Origin: a virus
DNA length: 30,782 bases
Strand: one strand, 5' to 3'
Virus record (IMG/VR): IMGVR_UViG_3300031825_000371
Location: 1-30,782 of that record
This document shows positions 12,001-20,113 of this stretch, one piece after another; the stretch's first letter is position 1, and each line of letters opens with the position of its first letter. Made by a program: the position numbers and the translations under genes. The notes under the pieces are model-generated. The model did not search any database and was not told the DNA's origin. It worked only from the letters and a program-made list of their open reading frames with translations.

Positions 12001-12777
12001 CTACCGCCTCAGGCCGCTCGACCGTCGCCCCCGCTTGCGCGAGGCCTCGATCTGGCCCGAAGGCGCGGTCACCGCAACCGTGCGACCGAACACTGCCAGA
12101 TCTACCCGCACGTCTCCCCGTCCGTCAACACCCGTCACCGGCCCTTCGAAGCCTGCGAACGGCCCCTCGATCAACCGCACCACCTCGCCCAAGGCCCAGG
12201 CCACCGCATCGTCGCCCTCGCCCGCCGGCGACGCCATCAGCCCCGCCTTGTCGGCCGAGGACACCAGCACCGCGACGACCGCGTCGGGCACCACCGCCGG
12301 CCCGTCGCCCCACGTGACCAGCCTCGCCACGCCGCGCGCCTTCGTCACGCCGTAGCAGCCCTGCCCCGGCTCGACGCGCACGAACAGGTAGCCCGCGAAG
12401 AGCGCCCGCTCGATAGTCTTCACCGGCCGCATCTTCCCCCGCACCGCCCGGCCGAAGGGCACGTCCACCCGGTAGCGCGGCAGGAACACGCCGAACCCCG
12501 CCTCGGCGAGCGCCGCCGCGGCCGCCGCCTCGCCACGCGGCACGGTCTGCACCAGGTGCCAGGCGCCGCGCCCCTCGCCCGCCGTCTCGCGCGCCCGCTC
12601 GGCCGCCCGCCGCGCCTCCGCCTCGGCGCTGCGCGCCAGCCACCACGCCCGGATCGCCGGGTCGACCGTCGCGGGATCGACGAGGCGCACACCCGATCGG
12701 CCTTCCTCCCGCCGATCCCGGCATCCTCCCGCCGCACCCTCGACCCTCCCGGCCGACAAGCCCTTGATCTCACTCAT
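12001..12777 (-). CDS. NusG-family transcription elongation / antitermination factor
   Basis: A 258-residue protein. After a phage-specific, Arg/Ala-rich N-terminal extension (1-70) comes a NusG N-terminal (NGN) domain at about 72-172: GAWHLVQTVPRGE, GFGVFLPRYR, ERALFAGYLFVRVEPGQG, GVARLVTWGDGPAVVP. A KOW motif follows at about 197-244 (GEVVRLIEGPFAGFEGPV). NGN binds RNA polymerase and suppresses pausing; KOW contacts Rho, ribosome or Nus factors. Housekeeping NusG is shorter (about 175-180 residues) and lies in the secE-nusG-rplK cluster, so this is a specialised paralogue. It lies just upstream of the HNH-terminase late genes, suggesting a late-gene antiterminator. Its leader is the GGGAGGAT repeat cluster. 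Confidence 0.85.
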   Translation of the reverse strand: MSEIKGLSAGRVEGAAGGCRDRREEGRSGVRLVDPATVDPAIRAWWLARSAEAEARRAAERARETAGEGRGAWHLVQTVPRGEAAAAAALAEAGFGVFLPRYRVDVPFGRAVRGKMRPVKTIERALFAGYLFVRVEPGQGCYGVTKARGVARLVTWGDGPAVVPDAVVAVLVSSADKAGLMASPAGEGDDAVAWALGEVVRLIEGPFAGFEGPVTGVDGRGDVRVDLAVFGRTVAVTAPSGQIEASRKRGRRSSGLRR

Positions 12778-12790
12778 GAGAGGTTCCCTT

Positions 12791-12971
12791 TTGGGAGGAT
12801 TTGGGAGGATGGGAGGATAATGGGTAATGATTTGTCATGGCGCGCAGGCGCGTCCACACGCATAGGCGTCATTGGCCGAAATCCTCCCATCCTCCCGCAT
12901 CCTCCCAACCGCTGCGATTTCAACGGCTTGCGCGTGGGAGGATGGCGGCCGCATCCTCCCGATGGGAGGAT
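12791..12971. repeat. Nine-copy GGGAGGAT/ATCCTCCC inverted repeat cluster
   Basis: On the plus strand GGGAGGAT occurs at 12793, 12803, 12811, 12936 and 12964; ATCCTCCC at 12881, 12889, 12899 and 12953. The two triplets have mirrored spacing (2 then 0, and 0 then 2), giving 28-bp arms (12791-12818 and 12881-12908) with only two mismatches around a 62-base loop. The second group makes short hairpins with 9-base and 3-base loops. The cluster fills the 198-base gap between the helicase stop and the NusG-like start, and would lie in that gene's mRNA leader. Single copies also occur at 12723-12730 and 14520-14527. Confidence 0.85.
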
Positions 12972-12975
12972 CGCG

Positions 12976-14649
12976 TCAGTCCTCGCGCGCCGCATGGCGG
13001 GGCCTCCCTTCGAAGTCGACGAGGTCGTCGATACCTTTGATCAACTGGCAGTCGAGCCACCACATCACGTTTGAATGCAGGTTTCTGAACCCGCGTTCTT
13101 TGAGAGCAGCCGCGAGACCCTTCGGAGACCATTCCTTTTCGCCGAACACCTTGGCCCAGGCGCAGAACAGCGCGTGCATGTCGCTCGATTGCACCCGGCT
13201 GCCCGGCACCATGCGCACGCACGCTTCGAGGAAGCGCCCGCACGGGTCGCTGTCCGTCCGATAGCTCGCCGTCGCCTCGGCCACCTCGGCGGGCACCACG
13301 AGGCCGTAGTCGAGCCAGTCGCAGAGCCCGTCGAGCAGCCGGTTGAGGATGCCGGCAAGCTCGGCCCGGAGCTTCTGGCCGAGGTGCTTGTCGCGCTTCG
13401 CGTCGGCGATCGTCACGAGCCACGGCACCAGGATGAGGCGGCGCCAGATCCCTTCGTCGGTGCCGTCCACCGAGGGCCGGTAGTTGCCCGATATGGTCAG
13501 CTTGAAGGCCGGGAAGAGCTTGAAGTATGGGCGGTTGAGGTGGCGCACGAGCAGCGGCTCGCCGCCGGTCGCGAGCTTGATCAGCGCCTCGGCGAGCTTC
13601 GCCCCCTTCTCAGGCTCGGATGTGCGCAGCAGCCGCACGCCGGGCAGAATGGCGAGTTCCGGCGAGGGCGCGCCGGCGTTCCGCGCCCGACCCGAATCGA
13701 GGAAGGTCTCGATCGGCACCGTCTCGGAATAGTCGCCGGCGACGAGCGCCCAGGTGTCGACCAAGGTAGACTTGCCGTTCTTCCCCTTGCCGTAGAAGAA
13801 CACGAGCCGCTGTTCCGAGGTGTCGCCGGTGAGCGAGTAGCCGCCCCACTGGTGCAGGAAGCGGCGGTTCGCCTCGTCGGGCTGCACGTCCTCGAGGAAG
13901 CGGTCATAGATCGGGCACTCGGCCGCCGGGTCGTAGGCGACGGGCGCGATCTTGGTGATCCGGTCGCCCCGGTTGTGCTTGCCGAAGGTGATCGAGGCGT
14001 GCCGCCCGCCCGCGCCGCGCACGATGCGGATCGTGCCGTTCTCGACGTTGATCGCGAACGGGTCGACGTCGAGCGCCGCCACCGCCACCTCGAGATAAGG
14101 GGCGGCGAGGCGGGCGATGCAGGCGAGGCGGTTCGCGCTCTCGCTCGCGATCGCCCAGCCCTTCAGCCGGTCGGAATACATCACCACCCGGCCGTCGCGC
14201 TTGCGGTCGACCACGTAGTCGTCGTCGGTGTCCTCGATCGCCTTCGCCTCGGCGCGGATCGCCCGCACGGTCTTGTAGACGGCGAGCGCCAGCAGCCCTT
14301 CGGCCGCCTCGCCGTTCCAGCGCTTGCCGTCCCAGCCGAGCCACCCGCGCTCCGGGCACCACAGGAACGAATCGCGGTAGCGGTCGACGAAGCGCTCGGC
14401 ATTGCCGAGGTCGGTCAAGGGCAGCTTGGCGAGCCGCCGGTCGCGCCCGACACCGCGCGCATCGCCACCCTTGCCACCCCCCGCACCCCCCGAAGAACGC
14501 CCGGCCTTGCCGCCCGTTCGGGAGGATGCCGGCTCGCTCCCGTCGGGAGGTGCGGAGGGCGAGGGCGCCGCGAACGGCGCGGCCGTGGCGATCGCCGCGC
14601 GCACGGCCTCCGGCCCGTCCTCGGCGGGGATCTCGTCGCCCGCCGTCAT
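12976..14649 (-). CDS. Phage replicative helicase/primase, P4/D5 C-terminal type
   Basis: A 557-residue protein. Residues 1-75 are a Gly/Ala/Ser-rich linker. A D5-type N-terminal domain follows (RFVDRYRDSFLWCPERGW at about 87-104), then the superfamily 3 ATPase: Walker A GKGKNGKST (287-295), Walker B region VRLLRTSEPE (338-347), sensor FKLTISGNYRPSVDG (382-396) and arginine finger IWRRLILVPW (401-410). It ends with a winged-helix-like part (SSDMHALFCAWAKVFGEKEW). It should unwind DNA at the phage origin. Its ATG overlaps the Toprim primase stop (ATGA), implying they form a primase-helicase pair. The longer frame upstream of 14649 is a shadow. Confidence 0.92.
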   Translation of the reverse strand: MTAGDEIPAEDGPEAVRAAIATAAPFAAPSPSAPPDGSEPASSRTGGKAGRSSGGAGGGKGGDARGVGRDRRLAKLPLTDLGNAERFVDRYRDSFLWCPERGWLGWDGKRWNGEAAEGLLALAVYKTVRAIRAEAKAIEDTDDDYVVDRKRDGRVVMYSDRLKGWAIASESANRLACIARLAAPYLEVAVAALDVDPFAINVENGTIRIVRGAGGRHASITFGKHNRGDRITKIAPVAYDPAAECPIYDRFLEDVQPDEANRRFLHQWGGYSLTGDTSEQRLVFFYGKGKNGKSTLVDTWALVAGDYSETVPIETFLDSGRARNAGAPSPELAILPGVRLLRTSEPEKGAKLAEALIKLATGGEPLLVRHLNRPYFKLFPAFKLTISGNYRPSVDGTDEGIWRRLILVPWLVTIADAKRDKHLGQKLRAELAGILNRLLDGLCDWLDYGLVVPAEVAEATASYRTDSDPCGRFLEACVRMVPGSRVQSSDMHALFCAWAKVFGEKEWSPKGLAAALKERGFRNLHSNVMWWLDCQLIKGIDDLVDFEGRPRHAARED

Positions 14650-15716
14650 CGCGCACCTCGATAGAGCGAGTTGAAGTCGTGCCCGGCCGGCGGCCGGGCG
14701 ATCGAGACCGCGAGCCCGCGGGCGGCGTGCGCCTCGGCCGCGGCGCGCTTCGTCGCCTCGGCGCGGGCCGGGTCGGCCTCGTCGGCATCGACCGCCAGCA
14801 CCACGGCGCCGACGCCGGCCGGCAAAGGCGCGGCGAGGTTGCCGAGCGAGAGCGCGGCGAAGGTCGGCAACCCCGTCGCCGCCATCACGGCGAGCGATGT
14901 CTCGATCCCCTCGGCCACCACGATCGCCGCCGCCGGCGGCGCCAGGCGCACGTGGCCGCCCTTGCAGGCGCCGCGCATCTTCCGAGCATCCTGCGATGTG
15001 CCGTCCGGCGCGGTGATCGTCGCCTTCGCCCGCCCGTCGGGCGCGAGCCACGTCAGGTGCACCCCGACGAGCCGCCCCGTCTCCCCATGCGTCACGAGAC
15101 CGACCTGTGCCGGCCCCTCGTGGATGACGACGGGCCGCGGCGGGGCCTCGCCTTTGGCGCGCGGCGGCGACCACCAGTAGGGCAAGCACGGGTGAAACCG
15201 CAGCGTCGGCGGCACGGCGGCGAGGCCGAGCCCGCGCGCGGCGAGCCACACCGGCACGAGGGTTCCCGCAGCCGGCCGGGCCGCACGCCAGAGGTCGCGC
15301 GCCTTCATCGTCTCGCGCAGCCGCGCCTCGGCGGCGTCGCGGGCGTGCGCGGCGCGCCGCGCCTCGGCCTCGCGCCGGCGCCGCTCGGCCTCGGCCGGGT
15401 CCGTCCGCTGGCCGTCGATCCCGAGGAACTTCCGCGCCTCCTCGAAGGTGCGCGCATCGACCTTGACGGCGCCCGTCAGGCAGTAGGCGAGGAGCGCCAG
15501 CACGTCGCCGCCGAGGCCTTGGCTGTGGCGATACCAGAGCCCGCGCCGCTGCCCGTCGAGCGTCACCCGCCAGGAACCGAGGTCGCCCCGGCTCTTCGGC
15601 GCGAGGTAGCCCTCGCCGCGCACCTCGAGCCACCCCGGGCAGTAGACGTCGAGCAGCCGCTCGAGCTCGTCGACGAGCCGCCCGCGGATGACGTCGCCGT
15701 CGTCGCGCGCGCTCAC
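14646..15716 (-). CDS. Toprim-domain primase (DUF7146-like)
   Basis: A 356-residue protein with a GTG start at 15716 that overlaps the methyltransferase stop as GTGA. The N-terminal 100 residues resemble a CHC2-derived primase domain without the zinc cysteines (YLAPKSRGDLGSWRV, GLGGDVLALLAY). The centre is an Arg/Ala coiled region. The Toprim domain is at about 260-345: VAEGIETS with Glu269, and AVDADEAD with Asp310 and Asp312 as metal ligands. It ends with PAGHDFNSLYRG, common in phage primases. It would synthesise primers for the adjacent helicase. Confidence 0.85.
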   Translation of the reverse strand: MSARDDGDVIRGRLVDELERLLDVYCPGWLEVRGEGYLAPKSRGDLGSWRVTLDGQRRGLWYRHSQGLGGDVLALLAYCLTGAVKVDARTFEEARKFLGIDGQRTDPAEAERRRREAEARRAAHARDAAEARLRETMKARDLWRAARPAAGTLVPVWLAARGLGLAAVPPTLRFHPCLPYWWSPPRAKGEAPPRPVVIHEGPAQVGLVTHGETGRLVGVHLTWLAPDGRAKATITAPDGTSQDARKMRGACKGGHVRLAPPAAAIVVAEGIETSLAVMAATGLPTFAALSLGNLAAPLPAGVGAVVLAVDADEADPARAEATKRAAAEAHAARGLAVSIARPPAGHDFNSLYRGAR

Positions 15717-17254
15717 TCCGCCGCCTCCCCGGGCTCGCCGTCCGTCGCGCCGAACAGCGGCCCGGCGTCGACCGCGCCGCCGCGGCGCTCGGCCTTCGCC
15801 TTGGCGGCGGCCGCCTTGCGGGTCGCCGGGCCTTCGGTGACGAGCGCCATCCGGCGGCGGATGTCGGCGGCGTACCGTTCCTCACGCTCGACGAGCACGG
15901 CGCGGCAGCCCTCGCGGAACGCCGCCTCGCCCGTGGTGCCGGTGCCGGCGAACGGGTCGAGCACCACGCCGCCCGGCGGCGTCACGAGCCGCACCAGCCA
16001 CCGCATCAGGTCGACCGGCTTGATCGTCGGGTGGCCCGAGCCGAGCCGGTCGTCGGCATCCGCCTTGGCCGAGTAGAAGAACCGGGCCGCCGAGCCGGAA
16101 TCGCCGTGGAAGGTGCTGCCCGCCTCGTCGCGGTTGCCCGCGAAGGCACCGTAGGTGTTGCGGAACTTGTCGGATCCGCGCGTCCGCACCGGCGCGTAAG
16201 CACCCGCCTCGGCCGGGAACGCCGCCACCACCCCGTCGCTGCCGTCGTGGATCAGGTTCGCCGGGTGGCGCCCCACGTTCGGATCGCGCCCCGGTTCTTC
16301 GTCCGCTTGGCGTGGGCCGCCGATGCCGCCGCCGTAGACCTCGCTGCGATTTTTGGGCAGAGAGGCCGGCACGGTCTTCGATGACCCCACCCGGCACCCG
16401 TCGATGTTGAGTGCCCCGGTCCCGTAGCGCAGCACGGTCTCCGCCACGGTCCCCTCGAGCGGCTTGCGCGCCAGCACGATCGGTTCGAACGCGGGCTTGA
16501 GCGCGGTGCCGAAGCCCTGCCAGCGCTCGGCCTCGGCCGTCGCGGGCGCCGTCACGGTCGGCACGAACACCCGCCCGTTGGTCTTTTCCCAGCCCGCCTT
16601 GTGCTGGTCCGCGCCGGGGATCATCCGTTTGACCGGTGCGCCCTCGGCGAGCACGCGCCGCTTCGCGCCGGCCGCCTTGTCGATCCCCTTCGCCACGTCG
16701 TGGTTCTTCGGGAACCTCGTCCCGTAGACCCACGCCAAGATCCCCTCGAAGCCGATGAGGTCGGCGATCCTGAGGAAGGCGTCGCGCTGCGCGTCGTCGA
16801 GGCTCTCGACGAAGCGGCGCACCTCCGGCACGAGGTCGAACATGTCGCCGATCGAGTCGCGCATCTCGAAGCCGGCCGTCTCGATCGCCGTGGCGAGGTG
16901 GTGGTAGGAGCGCGTGCCGCCGAAGGCGACGACGTGGCCGCCGGGCTTCAGCACCCGCAGCACCGCGCGCCAGAAGGCCGGGTCGAACGCCGTCTCGCCC
17001 GTATCCCAGGCCTGCCCCATGAAGCCGGCCGAGGCGCGCGCGTAGGCGCCGGTCGCGCCCTCCCGCGTGCCGGCATAGTCCTTCGCCGGCGCCGCGCCCG
17101 CCTTGCCGAAGCGCTTCCCGATCGAGACGAGCGCATAGGGCGGGTCGCACACCACGGCGTCGATCGACGCCGCGGCGAACCCGGCCAGCACGTCCCGGCT
17201 GTCGCCGACGTGCAGCACGACCCGACCGTCGAGGAGGGATTCGGGGGCTGTCAT
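15713..17254 (-). CDS. DNA methyltransferase, N6-adenine/N4-cytosine (beta motif order)
   Basis: A 513-residue protein from the ATG at 17254. Motif IV DPPY lies at 37-40 and motif I DPFAGTGTT at 433-441, so catalytic motif precedes the SAM-binding motif, as in beta-class enzymes such as CcrM. GHPTIKPVDLMRWLVRLV just before motif I is the conserved motif X region. The roughly 390 residues between are far larger than usual and should hold the target recognition domain. A basic tail follows motif I. DPPY is most often N6-adenine, but the base is not certain. No restriction enzyme is adjacent, so it is probably solitary and protects phage DNA or alters host methylation. Confidence 0.92.
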   Translation of the reverse strand: MTAPESLLDGRVVLHVGDSRDVLAGFAAASIDAVVCDPPYALVSIGKRFGKAGAAPAKDYAGTREGATGAYARASAGFMGQAWDTGETAFDPAFWRAVLRVLKPGGHVVAFGGTRSYHHLATAIETAGFEMRDSIGDMFDLVPEVRRFVESLDDAQRDAFLRIADLIGFEGILAWVYGTRFPKNHDVAKGIDKAAGAKRRVLAEGAPVKRMIPGADQHKAGWEKTNGRVFVPTVTAPATAEAERWQGFGTALKPAFEPIVLARKPLEGTVAETVLRYGTGALNIDGCRVGSSKTVPASLPKNRSEVYGGGIGGPRQADEEPGRDPNVGRHPANLIHDGSDGVVAAFPAEAGAYAPVRTRGSDKFRNTYGAFAGNRDEAGSTFHGDSGSAARFFYSAKADADDRLGSGHPTIKPVDLMRWLVRLVTPPGGVVLDPFAGTGTTGEAAFREGCRAVLVEREERYAADIRRRMALVTEGPATRKAAAAKAKAERRGGAVDAGPLFGATDGEPGEAAE

Positions 17255-17418
17255 CACTGCCTCACCGGCAATGGTGCACAGTAGCCGCAATAAATGTTGC
17301 CACACCGCTTCTTGAATACTTGCTTGTCCGTAGATACATCAGCCCGCGCCACTTCCCCCCGTGAATGGAGGAAGGGCAACGACACTGACCAATCTCCACC
17401 CCAGAGGATCGATGCACG

Positions 17419-17792: not shown

Positions 17793-19790
17793 TCACTCCG
17801 CCGCCTCCCGCGCGACCGCGAGGTCGGCGCAGTTGGCGGCGACGAGGGCAGCGGCGACCTGCGGGCAGACGCTGTTGCCGATCTTGTGGCGCTGCTCAGT
17901 ATCGTTGAGCACGCGCCCGTCGTGCGGCGCGGCCAGGACGTAGCTGTCCGGAAAGCCCTGCGCCCGGGCGAGCTCGCGCGGCGTCAGCATGCGCATGCCG
18001 ATGTCGACGATGACGTAGGTCTCGCCGCGCACCGTCACGGTCACGAGGTCGCCGCCGTCCCAGCATCCGTGCCGCCGCAGGAAGTCCGCGACCTGACGGG
18101 CGCGCGTCAGTTGCGCGTCGGCGAGCGGCGGCGGACCCGCCGTCGCCTCGGCGAGGCCGAACCGCGCCTTCGAGGTCACGGTGAGCGACGGCTCGTCGAT
18201 CGCCGCGCTCTGTCCGCCCGTCGAGTAGTAGGCCGTCATCAGCGGCAGCGTGACGACCGCCGCGTGCTGGCCGCCGGCGCAGACCGCCGGCACCGGCGCC
18301 TCGGCGGCGCCGCCACGGCGCTCGCTGCCCTTCATCGACAGCATGTGCGCGGCAACGACGCCTTGCGTGCTGCCCTTGCCAACGAGCGTCGACATCGCCT
18401 CGTCGGCGGCATGGCCGACCATGTCGGTGTTGTGCTGCGCGAGATAGACCGCGGCGAGGTCTCCGCCATTGCCGGTCGGAACGCCGGTCGGCATCGCCTC
18501 GTCGATCGCCCGCGTGCGCGGGTCCTGCCCGGGCCGCTCGCCGTAGCGCGGCACCAGGTAGGGCACGACGATGCCGTTCGTGTCCTTCCGGCTCGCCGTG
18601 ACCGTGTGGTGCGCCTCGTCGGCCGGCCGGCTGGCGCCGCCCTGCTGGCCGTAGCTGACGAACGGCGCGGCGACGGCCTCGACAAGAGCATGCCGCGGCG
18701 CGGTGGTGACCACGCGCGTCGGTTCGTCAACAGACGCCGAGCGATCGCCACCGCCGGCCCCCTCGCCGTAGTACGCTTGGAGATGCGGCACGACCAAACC
18801 GTGCGCGTCGCGCGCTGCCGCGACGGTGCGGAACGCCTCGCCGGCCGCCTGCCCGCGGAACCCGTCGCCACCGTGGTTGCAGGTGACGATGAAGGGCTCG
18901 GCCGCGGCGAGCACGTAGCGCTGCACGCCCTTGGCGATGCGCGCCTCAGTCTTCGGGGCGAGCGGCCGGATGATGCGCACGCCCGTCGCCGCCGTGTAGT
19001 CCTTCGATTCCGCCTTGGTCAGGAAGATCGACGGGCAGGGCCGGTCCCAGTCGATGATGTCGGCCGCCACCGGCCAAGGCGCGAGTTCCCCGCTCGCCAC
19101 CTCCGGCGAGCCCGGCCTGCCGTGCGTCGCCGCCGGCCAGACGATCTCACCCTCGAGCGCGGCGATGAGGCAAAGCCGCTTGCGGATGGTCGGCGAGCCC
19201 TTGGTGCAAGCGCGGATCTCCCGCCACTCGACGCGCCGGTAGCTGTAGCGCTTCAGCTCGGCGACCCAGGCGTCGAAGGTCTCGCCCTCGCGATCGGGAT
19301 CTGGTCGCCGGCCGCCGCGCCCGTCGTCGATGAGCGGCCCCCACTTCCGGAATTCCTCGACGTTCTCTAGGAAGATCCAGCGCGGCCGCTGCTCGGGCCG
19401 AAGTTCCTTCAGCCACCGCATCAGCACCCACGCGAGATCGCGCACCGACGGCGAGACGGGCGCGCCGCCCTTCGCCTTCGAGTGATGCCGGCAGTCCGGG
19501 CTCATCCACAGCAAGCCGATGCGGCGGCCGCCGACCAGCTCGCGCAGCGACACCTTCCAGACGTTGTGCGGCAGGTGCAGCGTGGCCGGGTGGTTCGCCG
19601 TGTGCATCGCGAGCGCGGCGGGATCGTGGTTGATCGCGATGTCGGGCGAGCGCCCGAGCGCCCACTCGATGCCGAGGCTCGCCCCGCCGCCGCCGGCAAA
19701 GGCGTCAACGATGAGCTCGTCGCCCGGCACCACGCCGACCGGCAGCCGCGGCGCACCGATCTCCCCGAAGAGGTCCGTCGCGGCGCGCAT
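17793..19790 (-). CDS. DNA (cytosine-5) methyltransferase with seven internal repeats
   Basis: A 665-residue protein from the ATG at 19790. C5-methyltransferase motifs in order: I DAFAGGGGASLG (29-40), IV MSPDCRHHSKAKGG with catalytic Cys100, VI LENVEEF (141-147), VIII SPTIRKRLCLIA (199-210), and IX/X MLTPRELARAQGFPDSY to IGNSVCPQVAAALVAAN (601-652). Between VIII and IX, residues 299-547 hold seven imperfect repeats of 32-36 residues, each with an aromatic/Gly start, a DEP/DEA turn and a TVT-HALV-like end. This replaces an ordinary target recognition domain. It is probably a solitary phage methyltransferase. Its start overlaps the TSCPD gene stop. Confidence 0.93.
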   Translation of the reverse strand: MRAATDLFGEIGAPRLPVGVVPGDELIVDAFAGGGGASLGIEWALGRSPDIAINHDPAALAMHTANHPATLHLPHNVWKVSLRELVGGRRIGLLWMSPDCRHHSKAKGGAPVSPSVRDLAWVLMRWLKELRPEQRPRWIFLENVEEFRKWGPLIDDGRGGRRPDPDREGETFDAWVAELKRYSYRRVEWREIRACTKGSPTIRKRLCLIAALEGEIVWPAATHGRPGSPEVASGELAPWPVAADIIDWDRPCPSIFLTKAESKDYTAATGVRIIRPLAPKTEARIAKGVQRYVLAAAEPFIVTCNHGGDGFRGQAAGEAFRTVAAARDAHGLVVPHLQAYYGEGAGGGDRSASVDEPTRVVTTAPRHALVEAVAAPFVSYGQQGGASRPADEAHHTVTASRKDTNGIVVPYLVPRYGERPGQDPRTRAIDEAMPTGVPTGNGGDLAAVYLAQHNTDMVGHAADEAMSTLVGKGSTQGVVAAHMLSMKGSERRGGAAEAPVPAVCAGGQHAAVVTLPLMTAYYSTGGQSAAIDEPSLTVTSKARFGLAEATAGPPPLADAQLTRARQVADFLRRHGCWDGGDLVTVTVRGETYVIVDIGMRMLTPRELARAQGFPDSYVLAAPHDGRVLNDTEQRHKIGNSVCPQVAAALVAANCADLAVAREAAE

Positions 19791-20113
19791 CACGGTGCCT
19801 CCCCGCCGATCCCGAGCTCGGCCAGCGCATCGACCAGCGCACCGCACGCCCCGGCCGCGAAGCCCGCCTCGTCGCGCGTCACCGCCTTGAGGATCGTCTC
19901 GAGCGACGCGCCGTGCTGCAGCGCGATCGACAGCACCACGGCGGCGTCGCGCGCGATCGCCTGAAGCGGCATTCCCGATTTTGTGGCGGTGAGGAACACC
20001 TCACCCACCCGCCCGTCGGCGTAGAACCCGACGCTCCCGGTGTAGAGGTGCCCCGCGTGCACGAACTCGAACGTCTCGGCCGGCCGCCTGGGCGGCAGCG
20101 TCTCGCGCGTCAT
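19790..20113 (-). CDS. Stand-alone TSCPD-domain protein (ribonucleotide reductase C-terminal module-like)
   Basis: A 107-residue protein (MTRETLPPRRPAETFEFVHA). FYADGRVGEVFLTATKSGMP, then a helix with DAAVVLSIALQHGASLETI, matches the TSCPD module found at the C-terminus of B12-dependent ribonucleotide reductases. No catalytic reductase domain is in the window, so this is an isolated module. The last 35 residues are helical with one cysteine. Starts and stops overlap neighbours (ATGA and TGATG). Known stand-alone copies have no established function; a role in dNTP metabolism or as a regulator is speculation. Confidence 0.7.
   Translation of the reverse strand: MTRETLPPRRPAETFEFVHAGHLYTGSVGFYADGRVGEVFLTATKSGMPLQAIARDAAVVLSIALQHGASLETILKAVTRDEAGFAAGACGALVDALAELGIGGEAP

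Follow-up and report, generated by a model that had tools for sequence, protein, structure and literature searches.

The 30,782-nt virus record IMGVR_UViG_3300031825_000371, the whole of which is referred to here as the window, carries an array of repeated octamers directly 3' of a P4-family helicase gene. At a probability of roughly 0.88, this array is the iteron replication origin of a temperate phage of alphaproteobacterial type, forming a pri-rep-ori module with a Toprim primase and the P4-family helicase. Since the order of primase, helicase and two inverted iteron sets around an AT-richer core is as in PICI, an iteron origin is the best explanation, and the array is probably a further example of the known P4-family/PICI origin type (rep-ori).

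Octamer array and surrounding phage genes

The features of the window on which the argument rests are the following, in order from the primase gene to the NusG-like gene.

14646-15716, minus strand: Toprim primase gene (pri), directly upstream of rep; PF13362, PF23639; phrog_510
12976-14649, minus strand: P4-family/D5_N SF3 initiator helicase gene (rep); PF08706, 78 bits; TIGR01613, 209 bits (cut-off 108.7)
13066-13068, minus strand: codon of helicase residue V479, in the wing turn of the modelled winged helix
12964-12971, plus strand: iteron GGGAGGAT, helicase-side outer group
12953-12960, minus strand: iteron, helicase-side outer group
12936-12943, plus strand: iteron, helicase-side outer group
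12899-12906, minus strand: iteron, helicase-side inner triplet
12889-12896, minus strand: iteron, helicase-side inner triplet
12881-12888, minus strand: iteron, helicase-side inner triplet
12819-12880, no strand: core spacer between the inverted triplets, 62 b, putative melting region
12811-12818, plus strand: iteron, NusG-side inner triplet
12803-12810, plus strand: iteron, NusG-side inner triplet
12793-12800, plus strand: iteron, NusG-side inner triplet
12743-12750, minus strand: one-mismatch iteron GGGAGGGT, NusG-side outer group, within the NusG-like ORF
12723-12730, minus strand: exact iteron (the tenth), NusG-side outer group, within the NusG-like ORF
12703-12710, minus strand: one-mismatch iteron GGGAGGAA, NusG-side outer group, within the NusG-like ORF
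12001-12777, minus strand: NusG-like gene, neighbour of the array; PF02357 and KOW; phrog_6386

Nine exact GGGAGGAT/ATCCTCCC octamers were found between 12793 and 12971, at the positions reported by an earlier, sequence-only reading and far beyond what chance would give. The exact octamer occurs 11 times in the whole window (expected 1.26, s.d. 1.04; maximum of 100 shuffles 5), and ten copies of a single 8-mer within 260 b were seen in none of 40 simulations of the window under a second-order Markov model, where the maximum was 5. One stray copy lies at 14520, and all other exact copies are clustered in the array. The limits first given to the array (12778-12975) enclose the nine sites but miss the three that lie inside the NusG-like ORF.

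When the two one-mismatch copies are counted, the array comprises 12 sites in 275 b, starting 4 b past the helicase stop codon, with six to either side of the core, a 6+6 count that depends on these two sites. Read from the helicase side, the strand order is + - + - - - (core) + + + - - -. The mirrored spacing of sense and antisense triplets that had been proposed proved exact for the two inner triplets (spacing 10,8 and 8,10). The three exact mirror pairs of the window array were equalled by 140 of 20,000 random arrays; the outer sites are poorly mirrored, and the dyad symmetry of the whole array is non-significant beyond the inner triplets. The core has an AT content of 0.44 as compared with 0.31 in the flanks, and is thus AT-richer than its surroundings, not AT-rich in absolute terms. 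GC skew exhibited no clear switch at the array, neither sigma-70 promoters nor intrinsic terminators were found in 12500-13300, and no second array was found within the window, a record that may be incomplete at its ends.

The minus strand carries, in order, a CII-like regulator, methylases, the Toprim primase, the P4-family helicase, the array, the NusG-like gene and HNH, followed by a small conserved gene at the usual TerS place, TerL, portal, a Clp-like protease and capsid. On this strand the array thus separates the replication genes from the packaging genes. A PICI is a satellite without its own TerL, portal and capsid; because TerL, portal, Clp-like protease and capsid are all encoded in the window, the element was not filed as one, and the 30.8-kb record is a full-size phage. 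It encodes both a CI-like and a CII-like regulator. Two DNA methyltransferase genes, of N6/N4 and C5 type, lie upstream of the primase (15713-17305 and 17793-19847).

The AlphaFold2 model of the helicase (pLDDT 91.9) has a C-terminal winged helix at about residues 429-487 of the fragment encoded by 14502-12976, and its best match among solved structures was the SaPI5 primase-helicase 7ola (Z 30, rmsd 4.6, 391 aligned, residues 16-492). We propose that each octamer would be a docking site for this winged-helix C-terminus, that the sites on either side of the core would load one helicase hexamer per side, head to head, and that the loaded helicases would melt the core and admit the primase. The six sites per side suggest one hexamer per side; this reading is kept as a suggestion because the site count varies across loci, 6+6 being one of the commonest arrangements yet found in just 7 of 68. 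The NusG-like gene would merely be the next gene, with about 28 first codons running over the outer iterons.

Arrays 3' of the helicase gene in relatives

In total, 86 helicase loci (numbered L) were gathered from viral contigs and from bacterial genomes, the latter of Sphingomonas, Hyphomicrobiales, Xanthobacteraceae, Ancylobacter and Paracoccus. In 70 of the 86, the 8-mer repeated most often in the locus fell in the 720-base tile that follows the helicase stop on its 3' side. Within 700 b past this stop, a single 8-mer recurs in four or more exact copies at 57 of the 67 non-redundant loci, and in six or more at 45. A clear exact array was absent within this distance in ten (L014, L018, L022, L043, L053, L060, L061, L063, L065 and L067), in which the origin may have decayed or shifted elsewhere. 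Degenerate GGGGA-type repeats were observed in L018. The 54 loci with at least five copies use 23 different units, with a strand balance of 195:202 copies, and the orientation counts are unequal in several loci, such as L008 (2F/5R) and L050 (3F/8R).

Across lineages the sites keep their positions with respect to the helicase stop codon, while the unit varies. The inner triplets of the window lie at offsets of 69/79/87 and 157/165/175 from the stop, those of L036, with the unit ATCCTTCC, at 77/87/95 and 159/167/177, and those of L045 at 66/76/85 and 151/160/169. Near-identical offsets are shared by the window, L036, L037, L040, L045, L049 and others, with ATCCTCCC, ATCCTTCC or ACCCTTGC as unit. 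The L006-type arrays (L006, L016, L025) are palindromic, - - - + - - (core) + + - + + +, and dyad symmetry of the whole array is strong in these and in L036. In 66 of 68 loci the core had a higher AT content than its flanks.

Some arrays lie further from the helicase stop, at offsets of 414-661 in L015, which has an extra 128-aa ORF between helicase and array, 159-546 in L062 and 199-477 in L069. Inspected by eye, many cores have a TTTTCGCGC...GTATA-like stretch following the left inner iterons and a TATAC-like one preceding the right ones (L006, L008, L009, L011, L015, L018 and L025), possibly a second conserved origin element. Among the checked relatives of the window helicase the next gene after the array is usually phrog_9306, of unknown function, which is found directly 3' of the array in L009, L011, L025, L035 and L037. 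Being linked to the putative origin, it may act in replication or packaging.

Comparison with P4, PICI and other phages

The P4 record was used as positive control, and SaPI was compared via papers and the 7ola fold rather than by sequence. The annotated type 1 octamers at P4 ori, TGTTCACC, have the strand order - - - + - - and spacing 10,11,22,43,10, and the half-arrays of L006 type (spacing 8-10, 10-11, 17-19, 48-50, 8-9) match these in strand order and spacing class. The P4 alpha protein binds type 1 octamers. P4 thus resembles the window in its P4-family initiator helicase, in 8-bp repeats of both orientations and in an array that immediately follows the initiator gene. It differs in the octamer itself, in having two separated arrays (ori and crr) where the window has a single two-sided one, and in being a satellite, whereas the window phage is full-size and has a separate Toprim primase gene.

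The P4 layout also provides the argument for a different role, namely that the window array, like crr, is an iteron site linked to the helicase for partition (centromere-like) or another purpose, with the true start of replication elsewhere. The alpha-linked array of P4 is in fact crr, with ten more type 1 octamers directly 3' of the alpha gene; crr is needed in cis and replication initiates at ori, 4.5 kb away. We nevertheless consider such a role unlikely, since each half of the array resembles P4 ori rather than crr, since the window, within its possibly incomplete ends, offers no second array as start site, and since two symmetric clusters with an AT-richer core are the layout of the PICI ori (PMC6092414).

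Functionally tested PICI origins consist of two iteron sets around an AT-rich region immediately 3' of rep, a layout described as common to no other known replicon (PMC6092414). SaPI Rep and SCCmec Cch2, of the Primase_Cterm/D5_N type, use the C-terminal domain to bind iterons that lie immediately past the genes encoding them, apparently as two hexamers (PMC7581432). The window shares with PICI/SaPI the order primase, initiator helicase and ori, the two iteron sets flanking an AT-richer core, and the helicase fold, but its module belongs to a phage of full size, which has genes for terminase, portal, protease and capsid. With the SCCmec Cch2 operon it shares a Primase_Cterm/D5_N helicase and repeats directly downstream, binding through the C-terminal domain being a property of Cch2; the Cch2 iterons are three direct repeats of 5 nt, as against twelve 8-nt sites in both orientations.

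Among named phages, both-strand arrays of 7-8-mers were found within 300 b of the stop of the P4-family primase in phi105, Patt, AcaML1, Mae-JY28 and Pthi1, including the following.

L106 2937-3160, both strands: phi105 array 3' of the primase, unit AAGTAACA
L110 2886-3090, both strands: Mycobacterium phage Patt array 3' of the primase, unit AGGGACAT
L112 2799-2920, both strands: AcaML1 array 3' of the primase, unit CCGTCAGA
Mae-JY28, both strands: array 3' of the P4-family primase, unit CCTTCCA

These arrays have other units than the window, and the annotation of the stretches read does not label any of them as an origin. In RR1-A, BPP-1 and Percival no array was found 3' of the P4-family primase. 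Our search of the open-access literature, which may have missed earlier descriptions, found no published phage iterons downstream of primases. One such description may be that of Streptococcus thermophilus phage Sfi21, with an origin next to the primase.

Iteron unit, helicase residue 479 and the NusG-like gene

Unit distance correlated with helicase distance (Spearman 0.51 for the core, 0.41 for the C-terminal domain), and the C-terminal domain was no better than the helicase core at predicting unit distance (partial r 0.08, permutation p 0.09). In all 36 loci of the clade of the window, base 6 of the unit (C or T) was concordant with residue 479 of the helicase (non-Gly or Gly), the only helicase column that follows base 6 perfectly. 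In a tree computed from the helicase minus its C-terminal domain, each trait shows two changes, which coincide in place, L036 having switched both independently of the Sphingomonas-type clade. Because the link comprises two independent events, a sign test cannot reach significance (p 0.5). The AlphaFold2 model places residue 479 in the wing of the winged helix, where a turn joins strands 474-476 and 480-487. The C-terminal domain of the window helicase would be expected to prefer GGGAGGAT, and that of L036 GGAAGGAT.

The same tracking of the unit with helicase lineage bears on whether the array is an operator or enhancer, serving late transcription at the early-late junction through a phage regulator (a repressor, the CII-like activator or the NusG-like protein). 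A position at the boundary of replication and packaging genes that share a strand, in a phage encoding both CI-like and CII-like regulators, is what such an array would have. However, no second array lies near the regulators, all octamers but one being at this site, there is no promoter-like site, and the layout fits the annotated P4 ori. An operator or enhancer is therefore very unlikely as the main function, and the array could have a secondary regulatory role.

The sequence-only reading had placed the array in the leader of the NusG-like gene, as an RNA attenuator or antiterminator in which alternative pairings of octamers would switch transcription or translation. The array does precede a gene for a phage transcription factor, and the minus-strand segment, which was to be checked by folding, gave a very stable fold (z -6.6). 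This stability is no evidence for an RNA role, however, because any inverted repeat array gives such a fold; copies in unequal numbers, as in L008 and L050, and the lack of an intrinsic terminator also speak against pairing of this kind. The RNA attenuator was rejected on comparative grounds, not on folding. Only one other relative of the NusG-like gene was found, that of L006 (68-74% identical), and none in the genome contigs or annotated phages searched. The gap before the gene in L006 also contains a repeat array, but its unit differs (GCGAGGGT/ACCCTCGC, plus a single stray GGGAGGAT), and the L006 helicase is just 36% identical to that of the window. In contrast, L037, L039 and L040, with helicases 58-63% identical to that of the window, have ATCCTCCC arrays and no NusG-like gene, as is the case for arrays in dozens of helicase loci. 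The array thus belongs to the helicase and not to the NusG-like gene, and changes of unit follow the helicase. Since the array accompanies the helicase where there is no NusG-like gene and the L006 unit differs, a switch in the NusG leader is exceedingly improbable, and the suggested Shine-Dalgarno mimicry in NusG-like translation finds no support. Compensatory changes between octamers, put forward as a sign of an RNA role, cannot tell the two readings apart here: the two orientations of an iteron array undergo concerted evolution, so that both arms change together under protein binding as well. Of the alternatives that had been listed, the evidence instead favours DNA-binding iterons that form an origin near the helicase gene. 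A dispersed host repeat was rejected, as the clustered copies are all in one gap of the virus record and relatives carry other units there.

The NusG-like gene starts just past the inner iterons in both the window and L006, so that translation of its first codons runs through the outer iterons. The two proteins are homologous from residue 29 onwards, the first 28 or so window codons overlapping the outer iterons, and since the N-terminal tail is encoded by outer iterons in both phages (12690-12777 in the window, 5911-5995 in L006) the tails are unrelated while the rest is about 70% identical. The gene (phrog_6386) may encode an antiterminator of late genes, RfaH-like below cut-off (58 bits against the RfaH model, cut-off 144.5); the RfaH ops recruitment element GGCGGTAGnnT has no match in the window.

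With the array as iteron origin, sequence alone would give an origin address, directly 3' of the P4-family helicase, for many unannotated temperate phages of alphaproteobacteria and some others, and an origin layout ascribed to PICIs alone (PMC6092414) would be extended to full-size phages. A wider proposal, which we hold tentatively and at somewhat less than even odds, is that full-size temperate phages share a widespread modular origin system in which six sites per half-origin serve one hexamer, residue 479 reads iteron base 6, and specificity is switched by one amino acid together with a concerted change of about twelve DNA sites. If true, these phages would supply a naturally occurring series of helicase-origin pairs orthogonal to one another. 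The 23 units of conserved geometry and the link between base 6 and residue 479 make the joint change of an initiator and a dozen DNA sites a directly testable question.
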